Notes under the pieces: model-generated
Told to the model about the DNA's origin: nothing
Seen by the model: only the letters and a program-made list of their open reading frames with translations
Database searches by the model: none
Origin: Chamaelirium japonicum
Lineage: Eukaryota; Streptophyta; Magnoliopsida; Liliales; Melanthiaceae
Reading direction: 5' to 3'
DNA: 64,000 bases
Assembly (NCBI GenBank): GCA_947650365.1
Contig: OX393554.1
Coordinates: forward strand, 33,402,704-33,466,703
Shown here: in pieces, positions 2,350 to 50,199 of the stretch
Layout of the letters: every line of letters starts with the position of its first letter
Numbering within the stretch: the stretch's first letter is position 1
Translations under genes and position numbers: made by a program

Positions 2350-2770
2350 GTTGGCTACCTTGTATTTCCATGAACATATTGATAATCAAATCAGATGTGT
2401 TAGAAATTTTATAAACAAAAGATATGAGTTGAATTATTTTCTGAAATACAGTATTTGTATAACAAAATATGATATTTAATTACATCCGAGTAAATCATCA
2501 AATGGCAAAAGTAATTGTGTAAAAAAGCCATAGATCCGAACCCGGTCGCCCAGTCAACGGGCCCGACCCGGCTGTGATGTCACCGGACGGTAGGATTTCC
2601 CCATCAAGTGCAATTAGCCTGCCATCGGACGGCTGTGATGTCACAGGACGGTAGAATCCATCAGGACAAGGGACAGCATCTACATCCCGCTCCCTGCCCA
2701 GATTCTAAAACCCTTCGCTTTCTCACCGTTTAAATACCCGTCCAAACGGACCCCTGGTTCACCGGACCCG
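2350..2770 (+). promoter_or_regulatory. Upstream region of the CYP706 gene, with a duplicated TGATGTCAC block
   Basis: The 420 bases before the P450 start become GC-rich from about 2530. A block containing GGCTGTGATGTCAC, then GGACGGTAG, occurs twice about 62 bp apart (near 2569 and 2632). TGATGTCA resembles a bZIP-type core, but that is inference. TTTAAATACC near 2729-2738 is the best TATA-like sequence, about 35 bases before the ATG, which would leave a very short leader; transcription start is not known. The sequence before 2530 is AT-rich and shows nothing specific. Confidence 0.4.
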
Positions 2771-5700
2771 ATGGAATCCACCGCCGACTCATCCTCGCGC
2801 TTCCCCACCTACTCCGCCGCCGCACTGCTAACGGTGCTCTGGTACGCCGCCTTATTCTGGCGGTGGCGCCGCCGTGACAAGTACCCTCCTCTGCCCGGCC
2901 CCACCGGCCTCCCCCTCGTGGGCAACCTCCCCTTCCTCGACCCGGACCTCCACACCTACCTCGCCGGCCTCGCCCGCACCTACGGCCCCATCTTCCGCCT
3001 CAAGCTCGGCGCCAAGCTGGGCGTCGTGGTGACGTCGCCCGCCCTCGCCCGCGAGGTGCTCCGCGACCACGACGCCACCTTCGCCAACCGGGACGTCCCC
3101 GCCGTCTCGCGGGTCACCACGTACGGGGGCGGCGACATACTATGGAGCCCCAACGGCCCCACGTGGCGGATGCTGCGGCGGGTGTGCGTGCGGGAGATGC
3201 TGAGCACCGCCAGCCTGAACGCCGTGTACGGGCTCCGGAGGCGGGAGATGAGGGCCGCGGTCCGGCGCCTGCGGGACGCTGGGGGGGCGGCGGTGGACGT
3301 GGGGGAGGAGATGTTCGTGGCCACGCTGAACGTCATCACGGGGATGCTGTGGGGCGGGACGGTGGTGGCGGAGGCGGAGCGGGGGGCGGTGGGGAGAGAG
3401 TTCCGGGAGCTGGTGGGGGGGATAACGGACCTGGTGGGCAAGCCCAACGTGTCGGACTTCTTCCCGGCGCTGACCCGGTTCGACCTGCAGGGGGTGCAGC
3501 GGAGGATGGGGGTGCTGATCGCCCGGTTCGACCGGATGTTCGGGTCCATCATCGACCAGCGGGTGAGGATGGGCGACGGCGGGGACAAGGATTTTCTGCA
3601 GTACATGCTGAGGATGGAGGCGGGAGGGGGCGACCCCAACACTCCCTTCACCAGGGACCACGTCAAGGCTCTTCTATTGGTATATATATACACTCAACAT
3701 TATTATTTGCACTCACTCCCTCGTTTTCTCTTTTTCTAGTTCTCCGTTCAAATTCAACAGGCACGGGGTGAGATTATCCAGATGGTACGGTCGAACCGTA
3801 CCTGATCCGGGTTCGGCTACGGACCGTTTGCAAATTAACCTCGTATGAATCTAAACACAAAATCCAACATAAAATCAAGTATTTTTTTTAGTCACAAACG
3901 GATTTCCGGAGGCGCCACATGCCGGCGCAACAAGGGGACAGTCCCATCACACCGTCACTCCGGCGAACCCAACAACCACCACCACATCGCCACCACCGGC
4001 AGATCAAAATCTCCAATGGGAAAAGAAAATAAAAACATAAAAAAAAAACCACATACAAAATGGATCCAAAAAGGGCAAATCCAAAGCAGAGGTCGCCAGC
4101 GTCGGAGAACGTGCCCAAAACAAACCGGCACCACCGCCACCATCTCCGACAGCTCAGCCAAAATGAAGGAACACCATTGCCGCACCCGCTACTGTTGACC
4201 GCCGTTGCCACCGTATCACCGAAACCCGCGCCACCGGCAAGACAAGGCCATCTGGAAGAACCACCGCTGCAAACTAGAGCCGGGACCAGATCTGCACCCC
4301 CGACTAAAGCCGACGAGGAACCACGTCTCCGATGCCGATAGAGGACCGCCAATCAAGGAAGAGGGCGCCACACGTCTCCGTCACTACGAACACACAAAAA
4401 CCGCCACTGAAGAGGCCCATATGCACAAAGGGGGAAGAGGGGATCAGATCCTACCCAAGAATGAGCCGCAACTAAGGGCCTGGCCTCCCCGGAGCTGTCG
4501 CTGGCGCAAAATCGCCTACCTATCCAAATTAGAGGTTTTCCTCTTTTCCAAAAGCACTTGGCTGCAAAAAATCTTGTATAATCCTTACCCTAACGAGTAC
4601 AAGCCCATATATATAGAGTATAGTCATCTCCTATTGGTGGTTATTGGATCTGGATACCAATGGGTAAGGGTGTGTTTGGCATTGGTTTTAAAATTTTAGG
4701 TTTTTATTTTGGAATACCAAGAACTACTTTTGTATAAAACCAGTTTTAGCTTATAGAGAATCAATTTTAGAATTATCAACATTTGAGCATTTAGCAATAA
4801 AATCAGTTTTGAGCTTAAAACAAATTTTATAGTTACTTTCCCTATTTTTAAATACTATGTTTGTAAAACATTATCTATATAACATACTCTATCTATCACA
4901 TTATTTTTCTATATATATCATTTTCCCTCTCTATAATATTCTCTCTATATTATTTTCTCTCTCCAATAATTTTTTATTCTAAAATATTTTTTGTGTAACT
5001 CTCTTTGTCAATATTCTCTCTATATAATATTTCTCTTTAGAGCACTCTCTCTATATAATATTTTCTATCTACAATATTCTATTTATGATATTTTCTTCTT
5101 GTCTCTCAATGTCAATTCTTCTTACAACATTTTATTTCTTTAAAATACTTTCTTTCCAATATTTTCTCTTTGCGATATTTTCTCTTTCTACAATATATTC
5201 TCCCTAATATTATCTCTATCATATTTTCTCTCTATAATATTTTTTATCTTCTTTCCACGTTATTTTCTTTCTCTATAATATTTTCTCTCTAAAATACTCT
5301 CCTTCTCACGTATTTTCTCTCTCTATAATATTTTCTCTCTATAATATTATTTATCTTCTCTCTACGCTATTTTCTCTCTCTTTGATATTTTTCTATATAA
5401 TATTTTCTCTATTTCAATTTCTCTCTTAAACATTTGCTCTCTCTAAAATATTTTTTCTTTACAATATTTTCTCTCTCTAAAATATTCTCTTTGTATATTA
5501 TTTTTTTCTCTCTTTATAACATTTTTTCTCTCTAAAATATTCTCTTTCTATAATATTTTCTCTCTACAATATTTTCTTTTTCTACAATATTTTTTCTATC
5601 TACAACATCTTCAATCTATTTCTATAATATTTTTTCTTGATAACATTCTCCCTATGATATTTTCTCTCTATAATATTTTTTCCTCTCTACGTCATTTTCT

Positions 5701-8700
5701 CTCACTACAATATTTTTTCTTTATAAAATATTCTCTCTTTACAATATTTTCTCTCACTAAAATATTCTCTTTCTATAATATTTTTTTTCTCTAAAATATT
5801 ATATTTCTACAATGTTTCCTCTCTATAACATTTCTCTCTTTAAAATATTCTCTTTTTACAATATTTTCTCTCAGAAATATTCTTTCTATAATATTTTCTC
5901 TCTTGAACATATTTTCTTTCTATGATATCTTCTATCTATAATTAATTTTTTTCTCCTCTCTAAGTTATTTTCTCTCTCTAGAATATTTTTTATCTAAACT
6001 ATACTCTATAATATACTCTCCATAAAATATTCTCTTTCTATAATATTTTCTTCCTAAAATATTCTTTTTCTACAACATTTTTTTCTCTCTACAGTCATTT
6101 CTCTCTCTACAATATTTTCTTTTTGTAAAATATTCTTTAATTAAAATATTCTCTTTCTATAATATTTTCTCTCGAAAATATCATATTTCTACAATGTCTC
6201 CCCGCTACAACATTTCTCTCTCTAAAATATTATCTATTTATAATATTTTCTCTCTCTAAAATAATATATTTCTATAATATTTTCTCTCACTATAACTAAT
6301 ATTTTTTTCTGCTCGATACGTTTTTCTCTCTCTACAATAATTTTTGTCTAAACTATACTCTCTATAATATATTCTCTCTCTAAAATATTCTCTTTCTATA
6401 ATATCTTTTCTCTCTAAAATATTCTTTTTATAATATTTTCTCTCTCCATAATATTTTTTTTTTACAATATTCTCTCTCTGTAAAATTTTGCCTTTCTACT
6501 ATATTTTCTCTTTATAATATTTTCTATCTTCAATATTTTCTCACTACATCTTTATTTAATTAATACACTCTTTACCTATATTCTTCTCTTTATAATTTTT
6601 TTATAATATTTTTATATGTATAATATATTTTCTCTATAATAATTTTTTCTCTCTACAATATGATCTGTATATATTCTTCTAGTTTTAAATTTTCTCTCTT
6701 TATAATAGTTTTTATCTACAACATATTCATTATTCACAATAATTTCTCTTAATTAGCGTTTTGCCTCCTTGCCTCAAGAACCCAAAAGCAAAAAAATTCT
6801 GCTTTTGGGTTTTGGTGATTTTCTAGTTTTTGGTTTGAAAAACCAACTTTCTAAGCATATCCCAAACGCACTAAAATCCTATACCAAAGCCAGTTTGGCA
6901 AGCAGAACTAGTTTTGACCCAAACTAGGCCTTCAAAACTAATGCCAAACACACCCTAAGACAAACCCAACTAAAGGAGAAAAGCTGGGCACTGGGCTCAC
7001 AATCGTGACAAGTCTGAACAGCTTTTTGGACTACAACCACGGGTAGTCAGAACAACTATTTGGATATTGGATGCATGTAGTCTGCTGCCCAACCTTAACT
7101 ATCTCAATAGTTGTCCAGACCCATGTAGAAGATCAGCCAAACATGTCCAAACAAAAAATAGGAGTTCGAACCATACATGGCCTTAATGGCCTAAATAACT
7201 GTCAGAATGGCTAAACGACCAGTCTGAACAGTTGAACGTACCGTCCTAGTTACACAAGAACACTTAGAAATTTTCTAAGTGTCGGACCACTGTGGATTCT
7301 AAATCGGATAAAGCCGACTAAGCCTGATAAATTTTTAATAACCTGTTTGATATTAAATAATAATTATTATTATGTTTTTTTTATATAAAATCATTTGTAA
7401 TATGAATCGAACTCTAAATATATGAAACAATTAAAATCATGAAATAGCACGTAATTCCGAATGGATTCAAAAAAACTTGTTTTTGATATCGATCTTGTAT
7501 GTGTCATCGAACCAAACACGTTATATACCTGTGGAAATGGTCGAGCCTAATCTTTTGGTCTTCAAGAAATATTGTACCACACTTAAACATCTTTAATGAC
7601 TGTGGAGCACTGTTAAAATCTAGACCCACAAGATATTATTGTGGGAAGCGAAGGCTCTGACGATCTAGATCCGACCACCGGGTCTTTCACGAAAGCGATG
7701 CCACAAGGGTTCAAGGTCGAGATTCGAGATATCACACATCGGAGAAGATGATACGCCCAAGCACAACAAAGAAATATACAGGTAATCAAATATTAGGATT
7801 TCACTATCAAGATATTACAATTACCGGAATGTAATCGTCTTCGTCGTGTGATTGTAGAAAAAAAGAGTATCTACCGCATGTAATCGCCTTCGTCGTGTGA
7901 TTGTAACGAAAAAAGAGTATCAATTTGCTACAGTGCTTCAATGTAGCAAAAAAAAAAGCTACATTGATTTCACTATAGCAAAGAATAACAATTCGATAAT
8001 AAAGAATAACAAATTCTACAATGATTTCACTGTAGTAAAATTTTAATATTACTTCTAAAAAATTCTCGTTTAAAAAAAAAATTACTATAGTAAAATCAAT
8101 ATAGCAAAAAGTAACAATGTGCTAAGTACTATAACTAAAGAGTAGCTACTCTTTGCTGTAGAGAAGGCAACATTTGTGATTTTACTATGAGGGGTAGTTT
8201 TATCATTCAAAGTGGAGAAAAATCGATGGTGCATCCTTTTTCAATAAGGACTTGGTGCAAAGCAACCTTACAGTCTGTCCTTTTCACTAAATAGATCTCT
8301 TGTCAGGGACCTAACACCACATAACATTGCCAACAGGACATGGTTCTGGGGGGAACGGACACCACGTCAACCACAGTGGAGTGGGCGATGGCTGAAATGA
8401 TGAAGCAGCCCGAGATCATGAAGAGAGCACAAGAAGAGCTCGATGAAGTGGTGGGGAGGAGCAGCGTCGTCGAGGAGTCCGACATCCCCAAGCTGCACTA
8501 CCTCGCGCTGGTGATCAAGGAGGTGCTCCGCCTGCACCCGGTCGTCCCACTCCTGGTCCCCCACTGCCCGACGTCGCCGTGCGTCGTCGGGGGCCATACC
8601 GTCCCGCAGGGCAGCAGGGTCTTCATCAACGTGTGGGCGATCCACAGGGACCCTTCGTTGTGGGAGGACCCGTCGGAGTTCAAGCCGGAGAGGTTCTCGA

Positions 8701-8963
8701 GCGCCGGTAGCAGGTACGACTACAGTGGGAATGACTTCAGCTACTTCCCGTTTGGGTCTGGGAGGAGGATATGTGCAGCGGTCCCCATGGCGGAGAGGAT
8801 GGTCACCTACTCCCTGGCTTCTCTGCTGCACTCCTTTGATTGGAAGCTAGAGGAGGGGACGGAGGTCGATCTCACGGAGAAGTTTGGGATTGTTCTGAAG
8901 AAGGCTAAGCGACTGGTTGCTGTACCCATACCAAGGCTGGCTAGCCCTGAGCTCTATTCCTAG
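2771..8963 (+). CDS. Cytochrome P450, CYP706-like
   Basis: This is a class II plant P450, a haem monooxygenase anchored in the ER membrane and fed by P450 reductase; the substrate is unknown (other CYP706 members oxidise terpenoids or flavonoid-type compounds). Exons are 2771-3679 and 8337-8963, both junctions in phase 0, giving 511 residues, normal for the family. Residues 16-31 form the membrane anchor and 39-52 the proline hinge (PPLPGPTGLPLVGN). The second exon opens with DMVLGGTDTT, the I-helix oxygen-binding motif (308-313). ExxR is at 365-368 (EVLR), PERF at 420-423, and FGSGRRIC at 442-449 with haem ligand Cys449. The residue two after the cysteine is Ala where FxxGxRxCxG expects Gly (RICAAVPMAER), a mild oddity. 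WSPNGPTWRMLRRVCVREML and FANRDVPAV are CYP706-like; CYP76 is the alternative. The 4.66-kb intron carries transposons. No frame breaks are seen, so it may be functional. Confidence 0.9.
3680..4674. other. P450 intron, 5' part
   Basis: This is intron sequence after the donor GTATAT at 3680. From about 3880 to 4560 it turns GC-rich and carries overlapping open frames on both strands that match nothing I know. The opening words (TTCCGGAGGCGCCACATG) resemble the GC block inside the flanking repeats (CTCCCAGAGGTGCCACATG at about 1588 and 10330), so it is probably a relative of that repeat family rather than an exon. Confidence 0.35.
4678..6955. mobile_element. PIF/Harbinger-type nonautonomous element, 2.28 kb
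   Basis: The terminal inverted repeats are GGGTGTGTTTGGCATTGG on the left and its complement ending CCAAACACACCC on the right, with one mismatch in the first 20 or so bases. They are flanked by TAA at 4675-4677 and 6956-6958, the 3-bp target-site duplication typical of PIF/Harbinger (Tourist) elements. No transposase is encoded. The interior is dominated by a tandem array (next entry), which makes this element several times longer than usual Tourist MITEs. It lies in the P450 intron. Confidence 0.8.
4880..6740. repeat. Degenerate TATAATATTTTCTCTC tandem array
   Basis: About 1.9 kb consists of loosely repeated words such as CTCTCTATAATATTTTCTC and CTCTCTAAAATATTCTCTTT, with a basic unit of about 16-20 bases and sometimes a doubled unit. 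The + strand is almost free of G. The array lies wholly inside the inverted-repeat element 4678-6955. No reading frame longer than 60 codons exists in it. Confidence 0.85.
6959..8336. other. P450 intron, 3' part
   Basis: No coding sequence was recognised. A ~55-bp unit containing CGTCGTGTGATTGTA is repeated twice (about 7825-7920). From 7925 to 8180 there are many short words of the form CTACAGTG, CACTGTAG and TGTAGCAAA in both orientations, suggesting a decayed foldback element. The acceptor is CAACAG ending at 8336. Confidence 0.4.
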
Positions 8964-20942: not shown

Positions 20943-23900
20943 AAGAAACTAGAATATTTAATAAGAAAAGTTAAGAATAGAAAAGTAATACATTCCATTT
21001 TTCTCCGTAAACGTGACATTGGCCTATACAAAAAGTGTTGTATTTTAATAGGCCAATTAGACTTACCCCCTAAAATGATATCAATTAGAGTTACCCCCAA
21101 ATAACTGGAATTAACCCCCAAATAATTTGACTTACCCCCACCCCCATTATGCCTATATGGTATTTTGAGATACCCCCAATTTCGTCTGATTATCACATAG
21201 AAATTTTGCGGGGCTAAGCCAAAGTTGGGGGTAACTCTAATTGTTATCATTTGGGGGAGTAAGTCTAATTGGCCTACTAACACAAGGGGGAAAGTCAAAT
21301 TGACCCAAAAAAGAAACCATATACAAGTATGACCTATGATTTATCTATAATTCTATATATTTGTTTCATTGTATTTCTTCTACCATTTATCTACCATTTC
21401 AAGTAAAAAAAAGAATCAATAGGAAAAGTTTCTTACCACTTAGAGTTACTCAAAAAAATAAATTTGAACTTTCACCTTCGTCAATAGCTCTTTATGGGTA
21501 TCCAATGGCTCTTTTTTTAAATCTCTTTAAATCTTAAAAAAGGTTCATGCATTTGGCCCCTCAAGCCTAAGAAACAAACGACATTGGATTCCGACCACTC
21601 TAGAGAAAGATCAAGAAGATTTGTGAAAACATCTAAAATCCTCCAATTTCTCTTCACCCAAGTTTTGACAAGGTTATAAAGTGTTTCAGATAGACTCGTA
21701 TATTCCTTTCAGAACTGAAGAGAAAAAAAATAACAATAAAAACCAATATTAGAAGTTCCAAAACAAACCAAACCCCAAACCCCTCACTTTTACTTTTACT
21801 ATATTGTACTTATTATATTGTATCATGTGTCGTACATATCATATCGTGCATTGTACGATACGTGAAATATGATGTTTATGCCCGGATCATATCGTTTTCC
21901 TTTCATATTATACCGTATCGCATGTATCATGTCATGTATCGTAGATACTAACAACCATGATGATAACAATGTCAGGAAATTTTATGACTATAGCAAGAGT
22001 CGTGAAAGATATATAGGCTTCCATGTCAAGTTGGAACCAATTCTCACTATTATTGAAAGTTGCAGGATGGTACAACAGATCAAGATCGTGGGTTGGGGAG
22101 GCAGCACAGAGGCCCACAGGCTCTCGAGCTCAAAGCAGGATTTCCAGTGGCAACACAAAAACTGCCGACTTTCTTAAAGTTGAAAGCAAGCAAAAAGTTA
22201 CTTAGCAAACAACATAGCTTTTTGAATGTTGGTTAGTTGCAACTTGCAACTACAAATAGCAAAATATGAAAGCTGATTCAAGATGTGTTAGATGGTTATG
22301 CACAGACATACACGAGCCAAGGAACCATTAAACCAAAAACGACACAATATAAAATGGTCAATTGTCACATTCTGGATTAAATACCAACCACTTGGGGCAG
22401 GTTTCTTAATCTTCTTATTCATTCCTATAAAGGCTAGAGCCTTCGCAAAGATGTCAGTCAACATATAAAATGCATGCACCTTATTGTAGGATGTCAGATA
22501 TTTTTGAAAGTAAGAAATTAAAGGTGAGAAAATCACTGGAAATTTCTACTATACATAATTCAAACTCCTTTGTCACTGATGAATATGAATCCATGCTGTG
22601 AAACAATCCATTCTTAGTTTATGTCTAGAAAGTCCACAATACCATCAGACATGCAATGATTTTCCTAGGAGAGAAAAGTACCTGTTATTCCAAGTAGTAG
22701 GAGTATCTACAACATAAAGTTTGTGACAATGACCATAATGTGTACTTACCGGACGTTGAAAGACAGGGTCAGGCCTCGATTGTCTGGGGTCATTCCAGAA
22801 AACCTCAGTAATTGAACCAGCACGAATAACAAATTGATCCCTAGCTCTTTTATCGGTTAGCCAATTCTGGAAATTTTCCTGTAATAACATTTAAGTTTAG
22901 AAAGTATCATGATCAAAGTCATTTCAAAGATACATAAACATGCAAAAAGATAAAAACTTAATGCGAAAATGATTAAGAGAGTAACAACAAATATATGATG
23001 ACGAATGATATTAGCATTACAATGTTGACCAAGGGCATGATCATCATTTTCATCTCCAAGTCTTCTCCCATTACGATATTTTAGCTACGAAGCACAACTC
23101 TAATCAAGAAGGCACCATGCAAGAATTGAGCAGAATTCTAGACCAAAGCAATTTTTGGCTGGGGGCGGGCCTTGTCATTGAACCTCGATTGTGGGTATCA
23201 TAAACATCATATTATAATAGGAGACTCACCTCCTCAACAAATTAAGATAACTTCAAGAAATTGACAGAAATTATCACAGCAATCAATGATGGTAACACAA
23301 TAAGAATTGGTAAAAATGACCTGTCTCTGGGATGTCAAATTGAATAATACTAAGTCAGACAGAAACAATAACGACTGCAGTTGTAGCATGGGTTTGATGT
23401 GTTTTCACCCTCTCATTATCCTTTTCCCTGGAAGATGGGGATAACATGACATATAGATCTTATTAGATAGAAGCAGATAGTCCAAGTAGTTGTTGTGTAT
23501 TACATACTTAACAAATCTACAATTCAAACTAGTCTAGTTATAAACTAGGTTAAGTTTATGTCTTGAACCAGTCAGTGCAGGTAAAATGTATCAGAGAAAA
23601 GTGGATCAAGATGTATTAAAATGTATAAATTGGATGTTACTTACATGGGTGATTCAAGAGCATATGGGCTATTTGTACATTTCAGCACACCGGTGGACCG
23701 ACGAAGTGAACCGATTGGCAAGCAATTAACAAGTTAATTTCAGGGTTAATAAATACTGAAATTAATATTTTTGAAATAAAATCTTAATTTCCGAATAAAA
23801 TATTATTTTTATTCCGAAATTATTATTTTAATACGAAAATATTTTATTTTCGGATTTATTAATTATATAATTTAATTATGGGATTCCGTGCAAGATTTTA

Positions 23901-26900
23901 TGATACTTCGGGCAAGTTTTGATTGTATTTCGAGGATTTTAGATGATATTTAATTATGGTATTTCGGGTAATATTTGATGGTATTCAGTAAAGATTGGAT
24001 AGTATTTAATTATGGAATTTTGGGCAAGATTTGATTTGGTTCAAATATTCTAAAATTACGGGTTGTTATTATGGTAAGATTCGATTTAATTCAAATCTAT
24101 CATTATGAAGTTGTTATTGCTTTCCTTTTTTGAATTTGGTTGTAATCCTATTTAAAGGCCCAAGTATGATAAAATATAGTAGAAGAGGTGTGCACATTCG
24201 ATGGGCCAATAGAGAGCAACCTTCTTCATAGGTGCAACTATTTTCGTTAGGAAACGAGTATTAGTTTCATCTTTTGTAGTCAAAGAGCCGCCTAGGCGGA
24301 GACCTAGGCGTTTTGGACCCCTGAGATCCTAGACAACCCCCTAAGCAGGCGGTTTTCCCTAGGCGATCGTCTAGCTCCGCCTAGGCGGCCGCCTAGGACC
24401 GCCTGGCGCCCGGGCAGTTTTTCACTTAATCCAATTTGGGGTTTTTCTAAAATTGAGCTGAATTAACTTATAATTGAGTTGCATTAACTCAAATTCAGTT
24501 AAATTAGCTCAATATTGAGTTAAATTAACTCAAATTCTAATGATGGGTTCATAAGAATTTGGGGGGTTTTCAAAATTGAGTTGAATTAACTTAAAATTCA
24601 GCTGAATTAACTAAAATTCATATGACAGGTTCATAAGAATTTGGGAGTTTTCAAAATTGAGTTGAATTAACTCAAATTGAGTTGAATAAACCCAAAATTT
24701 AGTTGAATTAGCTCAAATTCTTATGATGGCTTCAAAAGAATTTGGGGGGTTTTCAAAATTGAGTTGAATTAACTCAAGTTCTTATGATGAGTTCATAAAA
24801 AATTGGGGGGTTTTCAAACTCAACTTGAATTAACTCATAATTGACTTGAATTAACTCAAAATTGAGTTTAATTCACTCATATTATTATATAATTGGTTCA
24901 TAAGAATTTGGGGGGGTTTCAAAATTGAGTTGAGTTAACTCAAAATTGAGTTGCATTAACTCAAATTCTTATGAAGGGTTCATAAGAATTTGGGTTTTTT
25001 TTCAAAATTTAGTTGAATTAATCCAAAAGTGAGTAGAATTAACTCAAAGTGAGTAGAATAAACTCAAATTGCGTTGAATTAACTCAAATTCTTATGATGG
25101 TTTGATAAGAATTTAGAGGTTTTTCAAATTGAGTTGAATTAACTCAAAAAAGTTGAATTAAATCTAAACTTAAACCCTATACAGTAATATTTATTTTTTT
25201 TCTTGATTTTTTAGAAATTTTTAGAATTTTTCCCAATTTTTTTCTTCAATTTTTTTATTTTTTGATTCAGTTTGAGGGTATGGTATTTCTATACTTTCTA
25301 GATAATTCAATTTTTAGGTGGTGAAAATTATAATCAACATGCTACTAGATTGTATATACATATTTATACTATGTATAAAAATATTAATAATTACTCGTCG
25401 TTTAGGCAACGCCTAAGCAACGCTTCACCTAGACAGGCAAAACGCCTAGGCGCTGCCTAGCCACCTTGACTACACTGGTTTCATCATCATCCAAGTTTAA
25501 TCCCATCAAGATGGAGTAGACTATAGGGAAGATTGACAAGAATTTCCTGATTGGTATCCACTAGAGATATATTCTCTATATTTGGTGTTGAAGACATGAC
25601 AAAGGCAACCGGCAAGAGAAGGGTTTACCAAGAAACATACAAGGCTAGTTGGCAGTGGATTACACAGTCTAAGCTCATGCAATAAGGGAGAAACCCTCCA
25701 AGGTTCTCTTAAACTAGGAAAGAATTTACACGAAGAGGGTAGGAGACTCGAAACCCAAAAAACATATCACAAGTTGCATTGAGGATCTCATAAGTGTGAT
25801 GCTTTTCTTCTAACTTTTAAAGTGCTACATTAATCCATGGGCCCTTACATAAACAGAAGCTAATCTTGGAAGTAGCCTATAAAAACAATACTTTCTTTAG
25901 ATCATAGCACGCATAATGGTACACGTTGAAGTCTCTCATTGATTGCCTTTATTTTTTCATCTTTTCCCATGTAACTTGCTGATGATATCATGTTACTGAT
26001 GAAGTAAGGATTGAGTTGAAATATTGAAGGAAAGAATCATATGATAAGGGTCCGATATTAGTAAACTGAAGCGATGTATATAGAATGTTACTTCGAAGTA
26101 AATAGAAATGATGGTCGAACAGTAATCAAAATGTGGTCAAGTGATATTATGTTGTGGTCATATTCGTTTTTTGGATCTACTATGAGATTTAATGGAAAGA
26201 TAGAGAAAGAGACCGGTGTTCAAAAGCTAAACTCGGACACGGCTTGAAAGCCAAGCGAATCGAGCAAACTCGGTCCAACTCGGCCAAGTTTTACCCCAAC
26301 TCAATACGACTCGGCCAAATAATTCGACTCAAAATCTGGTCACGTTGAGTCGACTCAGTCAGACTCGACCGAGTTTTAAAAAAGTGCAAACTGTTACTGA
26401 CCGAAGCATGTCTTTGAGGGACAAAATAATAATCTATATACATGTTTGGGCAGTTCGGGTTATTTACAACCCTGCCATCCTCAAAATCACGCAAGATAAC
26501 TTACGAGACAACTTTCGGAGACAAGTTGTCCATCCGATCTAATTGTACGTATCAAACAATATCCCCATATCCCCTCAAATCGAACGGATAAAAACCCTCC
26601 CCTCAAATCGAACGGATATAAAACCCCCCACAAATCTATCAAAACTGAAATATATAGAGAAACGGGAAAGAGAGGAGATCGTGTGCAGATTTTAGAGAGG
26701 GAAAAACCTGGGCTTCAGTTGCAGCGCAATGGGATTCATGGGTTCGGGTAGAACGGACGGCTGTGATGAAGGGAAATAAAAAGAAAGAGAAACGGAAAAG
26801 AGAGGAGATCGTGTGCAGATTTTAGAGAGAGACAAATCTGGGCTTGGGTTGCAGCGCAACGGGATTCATGGGTTCAGGTAGAACGGACGGCTGTGATGAA

Positions 26901-27334
26901 GGGAAATATTCAACACACTCAATCATCTCTCAAATCAAATGGATCAAAAATTCTCAGAAATCACTCAGAAAAAACAAATCCCTCAATACTCTGCCATGCT
27001 AACAACCAATACCTACACGATCTCCCCCCGGCCCCCTCACCACGCTAACAACCACTGTGCACGATCGCACCCCACCCCCCACCCCCGGTTCGTCTCCTCT
27101 CCTCTCCGACTTGACGTCCCCCAACACCGATCAAACCACCGGGGCTCTCTCTCTCTCTCAACCCGACCCCAGCCCACCCTAGGTTCTCTCTCTCTGTTTC
27201 TCTTTTGCATGTTCGTCTCTCTTTATCTATACTGATTTAATTTTCTTTCATTTTTGCAGGTTCCCAACACCGATCAAGTCACCAAGGAAACATTCCCCTC
27301 TCTCTCTCTCAACCCAACCCCAGCCCACCCTAGG

Positions 27335-27397
<63 letters not shown>

Positions 27398-27642
27398 GTG
27401 TAACTGTGTTTGTTAGATTGGGAGTGAAAGATGATCTCTGGTTCTTATCATTCATGGCAGTACCCAATGCAGAAAGCCTCAATAAAAATACAGATATTAA
27501 CTTGATTGATGATTCTTTAGCATAGTAAAATACAGATATTAACTTGATTAATGATTCTTTAGCATAGTACCAAAGTTCAGATTCCCACTAATTCAGTGGT
27601 AACAAAATTCTCTCTCTAAACTCCCACCCCCACCCGAACCGT

Positions 27643-27714
<72 letters not shown>

Positions 27715-30700
27715 ACGACGTCCCCGTCCCGTCACCCTACAACGGCGCATGCACCACTGCACCCCGAACCATCTCCCTCTCTTTGCTCTGTTTTTTTTAA
27801 AAAACATTCTCTCTAACCTCCCACCCCCACCCCCACCCGAACGGTTCCCTCTCTCTCTTGCTCTCTAACGACGTCCCCGTCCCGTCACCCTACAACGGCG
27901 CATGCACCACTGCACCCCGAACCATCTCCCTCTCTTTGCTCTATTTTTAAAAAAAAACATTCTCTTTCTAAACCCCCACCCCCACCTCCACCCCGAACTC
28001 TCTCTAAACACCACCCCGGATCTTTTTTTTAAAAAAAACTCTCTAAAACCACAACCCCAACTCCAACCCGAATCCCCTCTCTCTCTAAACCCCCACTCCA
28101 AACCTGCAACTCTCTCTCTATCTAAACCACCACTCAGGTCTTTCTCTCTCTATATCTCTCAATTTTTTTTAAGAAAACATCTCTCTCTCTAAACCCCACC
28201 CGGCTCTGTTTGTTTTTAAAAAAAAACCCACCCCCTCTCTCTCTCTCTCTAAACCCCAACTCAGGTTCTCTCTATTCCCTCTATGCTCGGGTTCTTTTCA
28301 TGTTTACCCAATCAAAACTGAATTGAAGAGGTCAAAATGTAATTTTTTAACTATAGGGGAGTTAAGTATTTGTTAGCTAAACTTTAAGGGGTAAAGTGTA
28401 ATTTATCCATTTTTGTAACGGCTATGTTTGTTTTAAAACCCCCCCCCTCTCTCTCTAAACCCCAACTCAGGTTCTCTCTCTATTCCCTCTATTCCCGGGT
28501 TCTTTTCATGTTTACCCAATCAAAACTGAATTGAAGAGATCAAAATGTAATTTTTTAACTATAGGGGAGTTAAGTATTTGTTAGCTAAACTTTAGGGGGT
28601 AAAGTGTAATTTACCCATTTTTGTAATAACGCATGCCCTTTTCTTGATTTCTTCTGATCTACGATATTTAAAGAAAACCAAGCAATTGTTTTGCAAATAA
28701 TCCTTCAAGGGAAAATGATTTTGTTTTCAAACTTTTCCTTCTCAAATGGGGCTAATATGGATTTTTTTTTGGGTTATTTTAACTTTGCCCCCCCCCCCCC
28801 AATTTTCATTGAATTATACTTTACCCCATATTTTCATTCTTATTGATTTCTTCTGATCTATGATATTTAAAGAAAACCAAGCAATTGTTTTGCAAATAAT
28901 CCTTCCAGGGAAAATTATTTTCTTTTCAAACTTTTCCTTCTCAAATGGGGCTAATATGGATTTGTTTTTGGGTTATTTTAACTTTGCCCCCCAAATTTTT
29001 CATTGAATTAGACTTTACACCATATTTTCATTAATTAGACTTTTACCCCCAAAACTAACTGTTCGGTCAGCTCACACGCCAAAACTTTATTTCTTTTCCG
29101 TCAGTTCACCCTTTCTCTTAGATGGTGAGCTAACAGAACAGTTAGTTTTGGGGGTAAAGTCTAATTAATGAAAATATGGGGTAAAGTCTAATTCAATGAA
29201 AAATTTGGGGGGCAAAGTTAAATAACCCTCTTTTTTGTGCGTTCCAGTTTGTACCGAAGAACCCAACCCATAAGCAGATTTGGGTCAAAACAAAAAAATT
29301 TCTTTAATGCCAACGGTTAGCGATCAATTCAAAGTGATATTTACATACAAACACCTCGATCAATTCATTCAAACATTATATATTGACCCCTGCAATTACA
29401 TACAAACACCTAAATTCTCTATCATTCTCTCAACTCGACCACACCCCAACTTTCTCTCTCTCTCTCTCTCTAAACCCCCTCCCTTTTTCATTGATTTTGT
29501 TTTTCAGCAGTTCTTTCAGCCCAACCCGGATATCTCACTGATTTTTTTTTTCAGTAGCAGCTCCCTTCACTGAAACCACACCAAATATCCCCGATCGCCA
29601 ATACTTTCCAACACCGATCGCACCAGGTTCTCTTTCACTGTCTTTTTAAAATATCTATATAAAGCATTTTTTCACTTTGTTAGTATTTTAGTGTGCCGAT
29701 ATAAAATCTTTTAGTATAGTAACAATTTTCGGATGGTACTTTCTGAAATTTAATATCATGCTGATATTTGTTCCAAAATAAATGATTATCTTCTATTAAT
29801 AAATGATTCTCTATCTTTTTGATGCACCTTTTTTACCCGGTGAGATAATCTGTCAATTATGATTCAATTAAGGACACCATGTGAGAGTAACATTCTTCTA
29901 ATAATATGGTTCATGTATTATGTGGTCTCTATCTTAATTAGGGGGAAAGTAGGAAAAAATAAATATTATGGTCTTTTAGTTGCTTCTTCTTTTCTGCTCG
30001 GTGAGAAAACCGGTCAATGGGGGTGGTAATGCTCGATGGGGGTAATGCTCGATGGGGATTTTAAATCCCTATTGTAAATGGGGCAGTGATGGAGCCATGT
30101 ATGGGCTAAGGGGGGCCATGACCCCCCCTTCAATTATTGTTTTTGAAAAAAATTATATAGTAAATGTCTAGAATTTATACAAAAAAAAATTGTTTCATGC
30201 TTTGCTCCCCCTATCCCAAATGAAATTATTATGTTTTGACCCTTCTTAATATAAAATCATGATTCTGTCCCTGAAAGGGAGGTGTTAGGCTAATTCAAAA
30301 ATCACAAAAATCAATTTGTATAAAATCCTAAATCTTTATGGTATTTTTGTTGCTTCTTCATTTCTGTACGGTGACAGTAATGCTCAATTATGATTCTATT
30401 AAAAACACCGTGTGAGAGTAACGCTGCATAAAAAACTAAATTAAAATTTCAGCTCAATTAATTTAGAACAATCTTCGAGCATAGGCAGTTGATGTGATGT
30501 ATCAAAAGCGCTCAATGGGTCAAAGGATCCCAATACAGTGTTTCAAAAGCGCTCAATGGGTCAAATTGCTAGGAGACAAAGAGAAAAGGAAAAAATAGCC
30601 AAGGAAAACGCTATGACAATATTACCAGCTAAAAATTCAGAACAACTGCCGACTAAAAATCTAGAGATGTCAGATAAATCAACAAAGGATCCCAAGATAG

Positions 30701-33700
30701 TGTTTCAAAAGCGCTCAATGGGTCAAATTGCTAGGAGACAAAGAGAAAAGGAAGCAAAAGCCAGGGGCAAGGCTTTGATGATATTATCAACAGAAAATTT
30801 AGATCAACGTCCGACTGAAAATCTAGAGATGTCAGACATACCGGTATTCCGACAAAGGCAAACGAAGAGGACAAGAAATGATCCCGAGATATTGTATTAT
30901 TCGCGCTCCATGGGTCAACGTGCTAGAAAGCAAAGAGAAAGGGAGAAAAAAGCTAGGGAAATGACTGTGACGATAGTAACAACTCCAGCTTCTGAACATC
31001 TACTGGTTGCAAATCATGTTCCAGAACCAGTTGAAAATGAGGAGCAACATTTGCGACACGACACGTAAGTTACATATATTAAAGAAAATGCATAATCTTT
31101 TTTACTTAATTTAAATTAATCATAAGAACTACCAATGTTTTAAACTTTAACATCATATTGCGTTGGTTCGTGTTCAGAACTGTAGAAGTCAAAGCAATTG
31201 ATGAGGATGAGGACTTAAATGAACCTCTTACACATGGGGAACAACTAGGCCGTCATTTTCTTGGTCGTATGGATGTCTTATGTCCTATGTGTTCGGCTAT
31301 GCACTTTATTGATGAGCGATTAGCCAAATCCTCTGTGAGGTACCACGATTAGGCACGTGCTGTCTTGAAGGAAAGATAAGATTACGTTTGCTTAAGGTTC
31401 CCCCCAACCAATTAAAGATTTATTTGACGGTGACGATAGTCGCAGTAGATCTTTCCGGCTACATGCTAGAGATTACAATAATGCAAATGCATTCACAAGC
31501 CTCAGTGTGCAGAGATATTCACGTGTTATTATGGGCCGAGGACCTAGACCATTCACGATACATGGAGAGCTTTGACACTAAACGGGAGCCTTATTATCAA
31601 GACAAGATCAAATACCATCGTATGCACAGCTCTATATTTACGATCCATCACAGGCGTTGCAAATTCGCGAAAACAGGAATGAGAATCTTGATGGTTCTAT
31701 CGTCCGGATTATACAATACACTCTTATAAGGTGCAATCCCTTCATTGCCAAATTTAAAAGAGCACACGAATTATTGAGTACGGTGGATAATGAAGGGACG
31801 AATGTGCATGCATACCTGCATTATTCCAAATCTACTGACCAACGGCGCTATAACTTACCAAGATCTGATGAAATTGCGGTTATTCTACCAGGAGACGGGA
31901 CAGAGTACTCTAAAGTGCGAGATATTAAGATTTACTTGCGCAGTGAACAGTCACTAATGACCATCAGTGAGTGTCATCCGGCGTACCTACCGCTCCATTA
32001 CGTCCTTTTCCCATACGGTGAGCTTGTGTGGCACGAAGGTATGAAGAAATGAGACACGGTTAGAAATGTGACAACAAATACACGACTGACACAGATGGAT
32101 TACTACAGCTACAGACTATACCAAAGACCCACCGAATACTCAACAATCCTCAGAGCATGTAAGTTGTTCCAAGAGTTCATCGTCGACGCATGGGCGGCAA
32201 CGGAGCAGAACAAGAACTGGTGCAGAGACAATCAAAAAAAACTTTGTGCCGAGTTATACCAGGGGTTAACTGATGTTGCTGCACAAGGCCTTGACCCCAA
32301 TCATGTCGGAAAAATGATTATCTTACCATCCACACATATTGGAAGTCCACGCCACATGTTCGAGATTTTCCAAGATTCTATGGCAATCACGCGGTATAAT
32401 CACCATCCTGATATATTTCTGACTATGACCGCAAATCCAAAATGGGATGAGATTACACAAGAATTAATAGGTGATCAGAAATCAACAGATCGTCCGGATT
32501 TGATTTCCAGAGTTTTTGAGCTGAAGAGAAAGGCACTGATAAAGGAGATAAAGCTTAATGGGGTTTTCGATAAGGAAGTTGGCCACGTCTACACTATTGA
32601 ATTCCAGAAGCGAGGCCTGCCGCATATGCACGCATTTATATTTCTACGTTCCCAAGATAAGATCCGAAATGCTACGGATGTTGATAAAGTTGTGCGAGCA
32701 GAACTACCAAGCCGCGATGATTCAATTTTATACCAAACAATCACCACATGCATGATACATGGGCCTTGCGGTGCACGGAACAAGACAGCACCCTGAATGG
32801 AGAACGGGCGATGCACAAAGAGATATCCACGAGACTTCTATGATGCAACTACAATGGATCAGGACGGTTATCCTATTTACCGTAGACGCAACACCGATAG
32901 CTTCCATACAAGTGATGGTCATCTAATTGATAATCGAGATATAGTACCGTATAACCCGTACCTAACAAGAAAGTTCAACTGTCATATCAACGTCGAGGTC
33001 TGTGCCGGGCTACGATATGTTAAATATATACATAAATACATCTATAAAGGGCACGATCGAACAACAATCGTTATGGGAGGGGTAGATGAAATAAAGGATT
33101 ACCTTGATGCGAGGTACATTGGTCCAACAGAGGCATCATGGCGGATTTTCCAACATTCGATGCACGAGGAAATACCAAAGGTCGAGCGACTTGCCATTCA
33201 TCTACTGGGAGAGCACCGAGTTTTATTTGACCCTAACATGGAGATTGAACAGATTTTTCAAAATGCCAGTACGCAGAAGTCTACTTTGATTGCTTTTTTT
33301 GATTGTTGTGCGTTAAACCAAGAAGCAAGCAGCCTGACATATCAAGAATTTCCGCAATATTTTGTATAGAATAAGTCGCAAAAGAAATGGAGCAAACGAA
33401 AATCTGGCTTTGCGATTGGTAGGATGTTTTTTGCAAGTCCTAGCTCTGGCGAAATGTTCTACATGCGGCTTCTATTGACCGTCGTTCGAGGACCGACATC
33501 TTTTGAAAGCTTACGCACTGTTGATAACGTACTGCACAACACATTCAAGGCTACATGCATCGCGAGAGGATTGCTAGAGGACGATGAAGAGTGGGTATAG
33601 TGTCTTCAAGAAGCGACAATAATGAAGACCGGACAACAATTGAGGAGGCTATTCGCTGTCATTCTTTTACATTGCTCCCCGGTAGAACCAAATAGACTAT

Positions 33701-36700
33701 GGAGGCGATTCCACGAAAACATATGTGATGACCTAGCCCATAGGATACGCAACACGTATATGATCACAGTGCCAAGTGAAAATGAGGTCGAGGACTACGG
33801 ACTCTACCTACTAAATCAGTTACTTGCCGAATCCGGTAAGAGTCTAATCGACTATCCTCACATGCCAATGTATATATTAAACTAGTGCACAGTGCCCGGT
33901 AATAGACTAATCATCGAGCACCAGCAACTACAACACGAGGCCGAACAATCTGATCCGCAGAAGAATATTGACAAGTTGAATGCTTGCCAGCGTGCTGCTT
34001 TCGATCGGATATTTTCGTCGGCCATAGAGAACAAAGGCATGATGTTCTTCCTAAACGTCGGAGCAGGGACCGGGAAGACTTTCCTATACAATACTTTAGC
34101 AACGATGTGTCGAAGCCTTGGTCATATCGTGGTCGTCGTCGCGTCATCAGGGATTGCATCGTTTCTTCTCCTTGGAGGGCGGACAGCGCATTCCACATTT
34201 AGTATACCGCTAGATGTCATAGACAATTCGGCATGCGGATTCAGCAAGCAGTCGATCCAGTCAGAGCTACTGCAATAGGTGAAGTTGATCATATGGGATG
34301 AAGTTCCAATGCAACACAAGTACTGCGTTGAAACTGTCGATCGGACGCTTCGTGACATATGCGAGGTCGATAGGCCATTCGGAGGCATCACGGTTGTACT
34401 TGGTGGAGACTTTCGACAAATATTGCATGTGATACCAAAGGGTTTATGTGAGCAAATCATTGCCGCTACGCTGCAAAGGTCATCGCTCTGGAAATACATA
34501 CAAGTGCTAACTCTTACAATAAATATGCGACTGGATTCAGGGAATGATCACAATGTTGCTTTTGTAAAATTCTTGCAACAGGTATTGAATAGATTTAGTT
34601 TCAATATTCAATTTCAATGATTATTTCATATATTCTCGCACCACCTCAAATTCGTATGCATTTCTTGCAATATCCCTCATCTAATCCAGGTTGGTACAAT
34701 TCCGCAAGAGGACATCGAACTACCACCGGAGATGCACATATGCCCCACATTAGATGATCTGGTCACCAGGGTGTACCCGCACCTAGACGTGATCGAGGTT
34801 GTTACGCCAGGATACCTTACAGAACGTATTATACTGTCTGCAAGAAATGACGACGTCGATATGATCAATTGTGCAACACTAGATCAGTATCCAGGGGAGT
34901 CCAAGTGCTACTTCGCAGCAGACTCAATCGCGGAGGATGAAAATGATCGAAGTACTACATCCCGATACCCCCTTGAGTTCTTGAACTCACTGATTCCATC
35001 AGGTTTACCACCGTTCAAGCTGGAGATCAAAGTTGGGAGTCCAGTCATACTTCGTAGGAATATCGCTCCGAAAGATGGTCTTTGCAATGGAACGCGACTA
35101 ATGGTGACCAGATGTGCGACACGAATCATCGAAACAAGGATTCTAACCGGTGATAAAGCTGGAAAGTTGGTATTCATCCCAAGGATATCCCTCACTCCGT
35201 CGAATTCTGAAATCCCGATCAACATGACAAGACGTCAGTTCCCAGTTCGACTAGCGTATGCTATGACAATCAATAAATCTCAGGGACAATTGGTGTCAGT
35301 CGTCGGAGTCAATCTATGTACCCCGGTATTTACTCATGGACAACTGTATGTGGCACTCTCCCGGTGCACAAATTTTGACTATGTTAGTGTCCTGCAACAG
35401 GAAGATAGTCCAAACAGCACGACAAATATTGTCTACCCAGAGGTCTTATTATAAATTATAAATCAAAAGGTATGAATCAACATGAACAAAGTTTTCTAAA
35501 ATTTATTCTGTGATATTAAGTCCAATAGGTAAAATGTATGCATCGTTATATTGTAGGAGTGCCTAATTTTCCATGACATTGGAAAAGTGGAATGCTTGAG
35601 GACCTGCTGCATGTGTGACTACATTGCCCACACGTAAGTAATAAGTAATGCACTCAACCGTTGTCTTAGTTCTATGTGTGTATTACACAAACAGTGTTTC
35701 ACACCAATGTTTGTTCTCAACAGGTAATGCGTCAAGAACGAAGACTCAACCCCTATTAAGGGTTGGCTTTGCCTGATGGATAAGGCCATAATCAACGCTT
35801 TAGCACGTGATACTACTTAAAAGTTTCCGTTGGATAACACTAAGCATGGAATATATTGTTATACTCCAGTGACCTGATAGTGTTTCTCCAGTGATGTTAT
35901 GGATGTAATAAAAAAAATCAAGTTATTAGGTTCAAATAGTATTGGGTTCAAATATGCTACTTTATTCTACCTATCCGAGTTTCTTTTAGTATTTCCATAA
36001 ATGCTTTTTTTTATAAATCGTTGTAATTATAGACAAATTTTTTTTCTATATACTTATATCCGTGCCTTGCACAATTTGTATAAGGATGATAATGTGTCAT
36101 CAATCGGGCTTTTCACTAAATAATTTTGATATTTAATCTCTATTGTTGTGTACTTTTTAAAACAGAAATAAATAAAAGATGTACTCCAATGGCAGAATGG
36201 GTAGACATGCATTCATGGCGTTCGAGAGGAGGTGGTATACACTAAATGCCATGCTACAACCGATGACATTTGATACTTCAACTGGAATAAGAAAACTTAA
36301 GTATCTGCGAACGATTGATTCGATGGAGGACGGCTTACAAAAAATCTACACTGAGATTTGGAGCAATGGACAAAGACAAGATATCGTTATCTTTGCAAAT
36401 CCAGAAGAAAAAAAAAAATTATATCCATTCGACGTATGGTTCGTGGGATTCTTCAGTGATGTGGGTGTGATGCAGACCCAACTCTCTATATCTCTCTGTT
36501 TCAAGTGCTATGATTCATTAATTAAACCAATTGCGTGTTAGAACCAATTGTGAATTATTTTTTAATTTTATGGTTATATTCACTATTGAAATTGTTTCTC
36601 TCGATTAAGCCTACGATAGTGTGCAATCACTACGGTTATTCACTTAACGAATTTGCAAATGAATGAATGAACTTGCTGATGATCGATATTGATCTCTTTG

Positions 36701-39700
36701 GCTGTATATGCCGTAAACCTTCAAAAACAGCTTATGAGATATCTGCTAATAGTGGGATTTTGTTTGGGTTGAATGTGATTTTTATTTTTATCCTTACTGT
36801 TGATATTGAGCGATCTCTGTGAATGACATCCATTGTTTGTTGATATAAACCTCTATTTCTTGATGATGTCGTGATATCATGATATTGATCATTTTTGTTG
36901 TACAGTTTGAATCTTTCACTTCCTGTGAGTGTACTTTTCCATTGAATGTGGCAGCGAATGTCCCAATAGTGATTGCTATTGGTGGTGTCGGGGTCGTCGG
37001 TCCATCAAGGCGGGGCTGCTGTAGGCTGGTGTTGCCGCTGAAAATGTTTCGTCGCCGAAGACGATCAGGTGTGTTGCCGTCGAATACGACGGTATGGGTG
37101 GGGGTGGTAATACTCGATGGGGGTCTTGCCGCCGAAGGCGACCTAATGTTGTGCCCTTAGGTGTGTTGCCGCTGAAGGCGGCCCGCTGCAGTGCCGAAGG
37201 CACGGGCATGCACTAGTTTGGCAATAAGACACATTGGTGTACACATCAAAATATTGGACAATAAAGAAGGTCCAAGCATAGAAAAATGATGAGATGGATA
37301 TATGGCTAAACGACGAAGGCCTGAGGAATGAGTGAATTAAAGCATGCGTAGGAGTTGCACCAATTTATGGCAAATAGCTAAATATCAATTAAGAAGTTAT
37401 TAAATGTAAGGCACGTTTGCCTCAACATGTTGCAAAAGAGAAAACTGAGATCAAAGAAAACATCCACGAAAATTGTGATGAAGGATGTTTTTTTTTTTGA
37501 GAAATGTGATGAAGGATGTAAAAAGGCTTGCAATGACAGTGGATATAGCCTAAATAGGAATTGCACACATAAAAGGTTTCTTACTATTGACACAAAGAAC
37601 TACGATTTAGTTTTTATGGTTATGGTTACTGGTGAGACCTACCGTTTACTTCATTAACTTAGGAATAGTTTGTCAACTCTAAAATATGACGAAAGAAAAC
37701 AAGATATACTATTGTCGATTACATCCAACTAGTAACCTGTGTTTCATATATAAGGATATAACGATAATTGATGGTTAGGACTTTGGAGAGGAAAAACTTT
37801 AAACCAGTCTAAAATTAAGTCAAAATAGAAGTAAGGTTGGGCCTTTATCGAGTTTAGCTTGTATAGTTTTATGACTGCTAGGTCTGGCCGTGAGCTTCCA
37901 TAAACTTTCCACGTGTATCATGTTATGATTCTTTTATATAAGTAAAAGTTTAACATAATTCTTTTGAAAGAAAATACAAAAGTCTACACATCATAAAGAA
38001 ATGACATGAAGTGGAGGAAAGATAGAACATTCCTTTGCAGCAATTAAAACTTCAAAAAGAACACAAAACCATGCCAAGAATGTTCACAAACATCAACTAA
38101 TTTTGTATTGTGCATCCGCTAATTTCGTATTAACACTTCAAAAAGAACACAAAACCATGCCAAGCATGTTCACAAACATCAACATATTTCGTATTGCGCA
38201 TCAATCAGGAGCCCATGAATAGTATATTTTTAACAAGCTAGAAAACTAAGGGCTTGTTTGGATGTTGCGTAGATATGACGTGTGTTTCTTTGCATATGCA
38301 TTATAAAAAGAAACACATGTTCATAGTTGTACTTGTTTATTTGTTTTTGTCATTTGCACATATTTGTGCATGTGTTTATGTCTCCAGTGGGGACCATGTG
38401 GTGTTTTTCTATTTGTTCATGGGGTGAGATGAATTCTTAAAAGACCAGTTAGCGGCACATATTTGAACGTGTACAACCGGTTGCACATCTAAAAAAGAAA
38501 CAACCAAACATAAACTTTTGTTTGTACATGTGCAAATAGAAACACACCCCTATTTTCACATGATCCAAACAATACCTAATAATTTCCTGAGAAACATCAT
38601 AAAGATAACAAGAGATGACATCCTTGTAACAATGTATACTTGATAGGCTTACCCCAGGTTTGTATGGCTTGATTTCAGCAGGGGTCCACTCATCTGGTAC
38701 TCTCATGTACTTGTCGATGTCATCAAATGAATTAACAGCGAATATGTGTGATTTGTCCAGCTTATATCCATGTGTCTTTTCTATTGCAAGTTTTGCCTCC
38801 TGCAATGGGAAATAGTGTAACCCATGGAATCAAATGTCGGCAAATTTCTTACAAAATGATTGAAATATTTTTTTTCTAAGGTTCTCACATTGATATTGTC
38901 CGAGATTTCTATAGTATTGGTTCCTTCATCACAAAATATCGGCCAAAATGACCAACATTTGACCAAAATATGACATTCATCTTCTTGTGAACAATCAAAT
39001 TGAAGGTTTCCGTCTTTTTCATTAACAAAATCTGTAATTTTTAGCGGAATTTTCATATTTCTTCCATTTTCTGATTTTTTCATAACAAAACGATATTTGA
39101 CCAACATTTGACCGAAAGCGATCCAAATTCAACCAAAATCCAACAAATTTCAACCGAAAAGTTTCATTAAAAAATACAAAATTTCCATACATTTGACCGA
39201 AATCCGACTTTTCCTTTTTGACGACCAACCAAATTCAACTTTTCCTTTCAGTGCAAGCGTAACCACATATGATCATGTAATGGAAAATTGAACACTCAAG
39301 AGGTTCAAGTTGAAGAAGTTCCTCATTGTCGTCGATGATTAGTATTAAGAAAAATAAACATGCTAATATTCAAAATAAAAAATACAAGCCCCTTTTTGTT
39401 TCACAAATGATCAACAATATAATAGAAATGAGATTGAAAAATAAAAGACAGGTTCGATACCTCCGCCGTATTGAACTCGATAAAGCAGTACCCTTCAGTT
39501 TTTTTACTGTCCGCGTTTACAGGCATCCAAAGCCCCCCTTCTCTTATCACACCTATCTGACTGTATATCTTCCGGACAACGCCTTCCAGCTTCTCGAATT
39601 TCTCCGGTGGGACGACCGGCAGATTGTCGACGACGATGATGTTTTCGAACCCGGTCTCCAGTTCCAGGTTCTCATCATGAAACAGATCCTCATAATCATC

Positions 39701-48899: not shown

Positions 48900-49350
48900 T
48901 GAGATCACATGGAGGGGCGAGCTCCGGATCGAATGGAGGAGGTTGCCATCCGAGGAGCCACTCACTCGCCCCTCATCGGAAAACTCCTCAAGGAGCCATT
49001 CCTGCGAGGATGGAACCCTCCATGCCTTCCAAAGTTTGATGGAACTAAGGATCCCGTGGAACACGTGCTCACCTTCCAAAATGCCTTGGTCCCTCACGAA
49101 GAGGATCACATTCTCTATCGTACCTTTGCTAATAGTTTGTCGGGAACGCCGTTAGAGTGGTTCCACAAGCTTAGACCCTCGTCTATTTCATCCTTTACGG
49201 AGCTGAGCACACGGTTCATTGACCAGTATCGTTGTAACCGACGAGAATTAAAGACCCTGGAGTCACTCTTTGGGATGAGCATAACTCAGAAGGAGATGCT
49301 GAGTCAATTCCACCACAGGTTCAGAGCTGAAATACTTGAACTTAGCGGAC
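48900..49350 (+). other. Gag part of the Gypsy fossil
   Basis: The frame reads PCLPKFDGTKDPVEHVLTFQ, then GTPLEWFHKLRPSSISSFTE and FIDQYRCNR, the usual signature of plant Ty3/Gypsy gag (retrotransposon gag domain, PF03732). It belongs to the broken element 43684-55638. Confidence 0.85.
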
Positions 49351-50199
49351 GCTAACGGACAGGATCGCATAGTGATCACTGCCTTCAAGAACGCTATTCA
49401 GCTAGCCAACTCGTCAATGTCTCACTCATCAAATGCACTCCATAAACTATCAACGAGCTGTCAAGACGGATCAAGAAGTACATCAAAATTGAGGATGCGG
49501 ATAGCACGAGGAAGGTAGCAGACGCTCGAGTCCAATACCCGAGCTACAATCGGCCAGTAGTGGTCAAGAATGTCAACCAACAGCCGGCGAATCATCTTGG
49601 CGTGACAACAAGCGGCAAAGGTAGGAGGGACCTACGAGGCCACAGTGGAACAAGGAGCTCACGGTACTGAATGCCCCGATCGACCAGATCCTGGAGGCGA
49701 TTAAAGATGAACCATACTTCAAGTGGGCACCACCCCTTCAGCCCGGGGAAAGGGGGTCGTCAAGGTATTGTGAGTACCACCAAGATCAAGGCCATACTAC
49801 TTTATAGTGCAGAGCACTCAAGCACCATATAGATCTCATTGAGGCGGGGCACCTTGACCACTTCATTGATCTCCCTCAATACAAGGAGGCCAAAGCTGTG
49901 GGAGAAATCTAGCGAGGAGCGACTGCAGTCAACCCACCTCTTCCTCCGCCCGGAAGATGTCAGCTCAGGGAAATCGATGACGTCTACAGGTACCATGGCC
50001 CCGTGCCGTCTTCTAACTCCGTTGATCGTCAGGTTTGACACATAGAGCAAACATGTAGGGTCCACCATGTGGTGCTCGACCCTATCATACGGTCGGAACC
50101 AAAGGTAGAGGCAGCGATCCAGTTTTCAGCCGCCGACTTGGTAGGGATAGAAAGACCCTATAACCACCCCTTGGTCATACGTCTGCAAATAGCGAATTG

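Follow-up and report, generated by a model that had tools for sequence, protein, structure and literature searches.

Intron 3 of eIF3b in Chamaelirium japonicum harbours a complete Helitron that lies antisense to its host gene, occupies 68% of the intron and carries a broken Rep/helicase gene. The locus was studied in a window of 64,000 nucleotides (C6:33402704-33466703 of a 1.52-Gb assembly with 3,253 contigs) whose genes and repeats would fit a flowering plant, and all coordinates given here are positions within this window (Table 1). With a probability of roughly 0.85, we regard the arrangement as the tolerated insertion of a transposable element (TE): a decayed Helitron resides in the sole eIF3b gene found, is spliced out with its intron and is probably silenced.

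The eIF3b model comprises 2,196 coding bases including the stop and encodes 731 amino acids (aa) in an open frame without internal stop. The introns measure, in order, 89, 661, 15,774, 2,573, 93, 89, 91, 82, 239 and 99 bp. The predicted protein is 71% identical to Arabidopsis eIF3b over 709 aligned positions, and one exon of 180 aa matches eIF3b subunits of known structure, best of all 6zvj (E=1.9e-58). On the minus strand, exon 3 ends at 38653 with AAACCTGGG/GTAAGCC and exon 4 starts at 22878 with TTATTACAG/GAAAATTTC, where the slash marks the border. The two exons join in phase (...YKPG/ENFQNWL...), and the Arabidopsis protein aligns on both sides of the junction. The intron borders agree to the base with those of a first-pass annotation made from the letters alone. 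An initial gene model, dropped because exons 1-2 and exons 8-9 were poorly joined, has the same intron 3 as its replacement. In a search of the whole assembly with the 180-aa exon, the two candidates scored led to this place only, and a second copy was rejected on the result of this single query. eIF3b is essential; since, in addition, the sole locus found has an open frame, we infer that intron 3 is spliced out.

The extent of the Helitron was established by comparison with relatives in the same genome. When the stretch 26350-26950 was searched against the assembly, 36 of 49 matches outside the window started at query positions 80-84 (26429-26433), and the other 13 include eight short inner pieces. 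The 5' end was placed at 30 loci including the window, two of which (L031 and L033) are one copy. Twenty-five of these ends start with TC, 24 of them after an A, and the remaining five start with TATA, four adjoining TA repeats. At one locus, L015, a Helitron 5' end directly follows a Helitron-like 3' end (CTA...), forming a tandem or nested pair. Correspondingly, 27 of the 40 longer non-window matches to 36800-37300 stop at positions 417-420 (37216-37219). Thirty 3' ends, again including the window, were placed: 25 from the 30 loci of the 3' query, five of which were excluded as their alignment fell short of the end, and five from loci of the 5' query. CT occupies positions -4/-3 in all 30, CTAG is present in 27, and a T follows in 28. 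The window copy conforms to this pattern, as it begins with TC at 26433 after A26432 (A/TCTATATA) and ends with CTAG at 37213-37216 before T37217, in line with the CTRR terminus of Helitrons. A GC-rich hairpin precedes the 3' end by 13 bases, within the published distance of about 10-15 nt; at 13 nt it is slightly shorter than the published 15-20 nt, and a similar hairpin is found in the relatives. Judged from the flanking A and T, the element sits in an AT target without target-site duplication.

The domain content agrees with this assignment. Pfam recognises Helitron_like_N (PF14214, E=1.4e-52), PIF1 (PF05970, E=9.5e-30 and 9.7e-34) and Pif1_2B (PF21530, E=6e-15) within the element, and hence the combination of Rep domain and PIF1-type helicase typical of RepHel Helitrons is present, though in an interrupted frame. 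The closest relatives, drawn from eight Rep loci out of 150 matches, such that a closer one may exist, are L004 (on C3) and L005/L070 (on C472, a contig of 107 kb). They are 99.6% alike mutually and 95.4% identical to the window copy over about 3 kb. The C472 copy is open across the main exon (1,172 aa stop to stop), and L004 is open around Rep for 876 aa and may be damaged further on. Relative to the C472 copy, the main exon of the window copy is interrupted by eight in-frame stops (from 31.5 to 34.3 kb), not counting two further stops in a stretch of shifted frame; relative to both relatives it has two 1-bp deletions (31.3-31.4 kb) and one 3-bp deletion (32.2 kb). An intact helicase gene is therefore rejected, the uninterrupted RepHel frame of an autonomous Helitron is missing, and the Rep/helicase gene is, judged by its reading frame, a pseudogene. 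The first-pass annotation credited the Helitron with a Rep/helicase gene of its own, which is borne out by the domains as far as presence is concerned, but not as a working gene. A stop near 34618 was rejected as a sign of decay: the C472 relative shares it, at an equivalent position and within matching GT...AG borders, and this stop probably sits in an intron of the Helitron gene. Since L004 and L005 are near-identical, the family appears to have been active recently elsewhere in the genome.

Two open frames of the element are noted for their own sake. The N-terminal frame contains a motif of about 154 nt three times (30521-31028), two copies being 86% and 66% identical to the first, and the motif is also present in the C472 relative. 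Furthermore, the 3' part of the Helitron contains an open frame of 121 aa without Pfam match (36176-36541, plus strand), whose DNA falls in a stretch shared with the C472 relative that reaches 36554.

Five more distant relatives served as outgroup to polarise, at 2,678 sites, the substitutions that separate the window copy from its closest relatives. The window branch carries 95 changes, 71 transitions and 24 transversions, and GC-to-AT transitions outnumber AT-to-GC transitions by 49 to 22. C-to-T changes on either strand affect 15 of 256 CG, 14 of 196 CHG and 20 of 748 CHH sites. The difference between CG plus CHG (29/452) and CHH (20/748) is significant (Fisher p=0.0023), as are those for CG alone (0.028) and CHG alone (0.008). 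5-Methylcytosine in CG and CHG contexts leaves an excess of C-to-T changes, as in silenced plant TEs. The CG/CHG-enriched decay fits past methylation of the Helitron, and the CHG excess is the component that points to methylation of the TE type. Under a stricter filter (31138-34140; 29 unpolarised differences set aside), changes at codon positions 1/2/3 number 20/19/34 on the window branch versus 5/4/22 on the stem shared by L004 and the C472 copy (p=0.031). This spread, set against the relatives' stem, indicates that constraint on the Helitron gene is relaxed for part of the window branch.

Table 1. Features of the eIF3b locus and of the elements within its intron 3 (window positions).
Feature	Positions	Strand	Remarks
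eIF3b coding span	17963-39948	-	11 exons (gene model)
eIF3b exons 1-4	39948-39794, 39704-39461, 38799-38653, 22878-22750	-	
eIF3b exons 5-8	20176-20048, 19954-19871, 19781-19657, 19565-19367	-	
eIF3b exons 9-11	19284-18752, 18512-18404, 18304-17963	-	
eIF3b intron 3	22879-38652	-	15,774 bp, GT...AG, in phase
Complete Helitron	26433-37216	+	10,784 bp, between A26432 and T37217
Helitron N-terminal, repeat-bearing frame	30523-31065	+	open; 89% protein identity to C472 relative
Rep/helicase main exon	31110-34582	+	broken
Likely Rep/helicase intron	34583-34692	+	GT...AG; same borders in C472 relative
C-terminal helicase exon (Pif1 2B domain)	34693-35454	+	open
3'-terminal hairpin	37191-37203	+	GTGCC-GAA-GGCAC, 5-bp stem, GAA loop (fold); 13 bases before end
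hAT-like non-autonomous element	24272-25477		1,206 bp
Tourist-like miniature inverted-repeat transposable element	38250-38576		327 bp; TAA each side (38247-38249, 38577-38579); inverted ends

As a control for the length of intron 3, exons of the chaperonin family PF00118 were searched individually, and 89 matches yielded 35 pairs of adjacent matches on the same strand. The gaps have a median of 685 bp; eight of the 35 measure 5 kb or more, and a single one, on C2, exceeds 10 kb (14,196 bp). Some caution is needed with these figures: small exons may be missed; certain pairs have an end in common (three on C2, two on C8); the two matches of a pair can cover up to 25 of the same profile positions (23 in a pair 9.8 kb apart); and in the 14.2-kb pair the first piece, which reads across one stop, may belong to a pseudogene. 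Because gaps of 5-14 kb occur in this family, long introns are not rare in this genome. The window itself holds another one: a cytochrome P450 gene on the plus strand consists of two halves (2639-3739 and 8325-8963), which match PF00067 positions 2-268 and 269-458 and are about 4.6 kb apart. The oddity of a long intron, on which the first-pass annotation had laid weight, is thus smaller than implied, also in view of intronic Helitrons known from plants (PMC6591975), while its extreme size stands, as discussed below. As a side result, the PF00118 exon matches are paired across C4/C7, C2/C8 and C6/C12, a pattern that suggests an old whole-genome duplication; for eIF3b, a single locus was found.

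The element shares the defining features of plant RepHel Helitrons (PMC4683698, PMC6591975), namely a 5' TC, a 3' CTAG preceded by a short hairpin, a target site between A and T, and Helitron_like_N together with a PIF1-type helicase. It differs in that its RepHel gene is broken. In the stretches scanned, which make up part of the element and include the frame 36176-36541, Pfam recognised no RPA-like gene. A Helitron within a plant intron is a kind already known: 52 of 665 predicted Helitrons of Arabidopsis Col-0 lie in introns or untranslated regions, and a 4.3-kb Helitron in an intron of BrTT8 reportedly turns the seed coat yellow (PMC6591975). Compared with the latter, the window copy is larger (10.8 kb), bears RepHel and resides in a translation-factor gene with an open frame. 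Among the titles and opening lines of abstracts listed by literature searches, none concerned a Helitron in an intron of plant eIF3b, which does not prove that no such paper exists. The locus adds a case rather than a principle, but a fully bounded one: a translation-factor gene for which one locus was found tolerates, in an intron, a Helitron with RepHel whose decay, as recorded in its sequence, suggests methylation.

The sequence of events that we favour may be outlined as follows. A formerly autonomous Helitron would have inserted, by rolling-circle transposition to judge from what is known of the family, at an AT dinucleotide of eIF3b intron 3 and in antisense orientation. Without it, the intron would measure 4,990 bp and still include the hAT-like and the Tourist-like element. 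The insertion was presumably tolerated because the splice donor and acceptor lie 1.4 kb and 3.6 kb, respectively, outside the Helitron edges, and the whole intron would be removed as one GT-AG unit. The Helitron would have been, and probably still is, silenced by CG/CHG methylation, such that it would neither move nor make a working helicase. Transcription through the silenced element would require a heterochromatin-aware read-through, by analogy to IBM2/EDM2. In Arabidopsis, transcripts continue through long intronic TEs thanks to such silencing and to IBM2/EDM2, and loss of the marks on these TEs accompanies premature polyadenylation (PMC4417168, PMC10241880). The genes concerned, whose transcription depends on CHG methylation, IBM2 or EDM2, resemble eIF3b in having a long and probably methylated intronic TE, and they differ in that methylation of the window Helitron is deduced from its decay signature.

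Several points weigh against this account. Junctions of the eIF3b model were picked among GT/AG sites, and therefore GT and AG at intron 3 are a constraint of model building and not independent proof. Splicing of the intron, silence of the Helitron and lack of antisense RNA are all deductions from sequence. At 15.8 kb, intron 3 exceeds all 35 control gaps and belongs to the upper tail. The AT target is read from the flanks in the window, within a single genome. The context test is small, with 49 transitions only, and CG decay by itself could reflect gene-body methylation. Finally, some of the changes on the window branch may be older than the insertion, and for this reason the branch length (about 3.5%) gives no more than a maximum for the age of the insertion.

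Among the other explanations, the least improbable, though still unlikely, is that the Rep/helicase promoter of the Helitron is still active and that its antisense transcript overlaps the eIF3b pre-mRNA and tunes expression. The antisense orientation, the open N-terminal frame and C-terminal exon and the existence of a relative with an open main exon speak for it; the coding gene is dead, however, and the methylation-like decay suggests silencing. Such a transcript, which the first-pass annotation had considered, could not yield an intact helicase. A little less probable still is a chromatin-dependent gate on eIF3b, where full-length mRNA would be made only if transcription passes through the methylated, antisense element of 10.8 kb. 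If this were true, translation capacity would respond to methylation loss or heat, with premature polyadenylation inside the Helitron as the off state, and the locus would matter more if eIF3b mRNA were dependent on Helitron silencing.

It is very unlikely that the real eIF3b has a short intron and that what is seen here is an unexpressed copy or a false join in the assembly. The first-pass annotation had named a second, uninterrupted eIF3b locus and a join within 22.9-38.6 kb as the findings that would overturn it. Misjoins can leave no N, and the search for another copy employed one 180-aa exon; yet this search gave a single match in 1.52 Gb, the eIF3b frame is open, the window contains no N bases, and both ends of the Helitron are proper, flanked by A on the 5' and by T on the 3' side. 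Least probable of all is that the length or chromatin state of intron 3 is under selection, for instance as a transcription delay or chromatin switch. The very large intron in a conserved gene would fit such a role. In Arabidopsis, the sensor of heterochromatin in IBM1 is reportedly its intron. IBM1 itself is described as heterochromatin-sensing (PMC11265718). On the other hand, sequences of the Tourist-like element and of the Helitron recur as common repeats, constraint on the Helitron gene has been lost, and long introns also occur in the unrelated PF00118 family.

Besides the Helitron, whose presence and antisense orientation had been recognised correctly in the first-pass annotation, intron 3 contains the hAT and Tourist elements that were proposed there; both lie outside the Helitron. 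The Tourist-like element has a 3-bp TAA duplication, a terminal inverted repeat and many copies: 39 other full or near-full matches were found among 40 scored of 313 candidates, 38 of which start within 38241-38254 and 37 stop within 38572-38585. The hAT-like element is flanked by an 8-bp duplication, GTTTCATC, at 24264-24271 and 25478-25485; its short inverted ends have GTAGTCAA in common, and a tandem array lies inside. Its label derives from the duplication and the terminal inverted repeat. No Rfam family reached its gathering score in 17000-41000. Elsewhere in the window, a retrotransposon gag match (PF03732) is located at 48903-49355 on the plus strand and a gag-type aspartic protease match (PF13975), below the curated cut-off, at 61199-62011 on the minus strand; by their domains, these are retrotransposon remains upstream of eIF3b.

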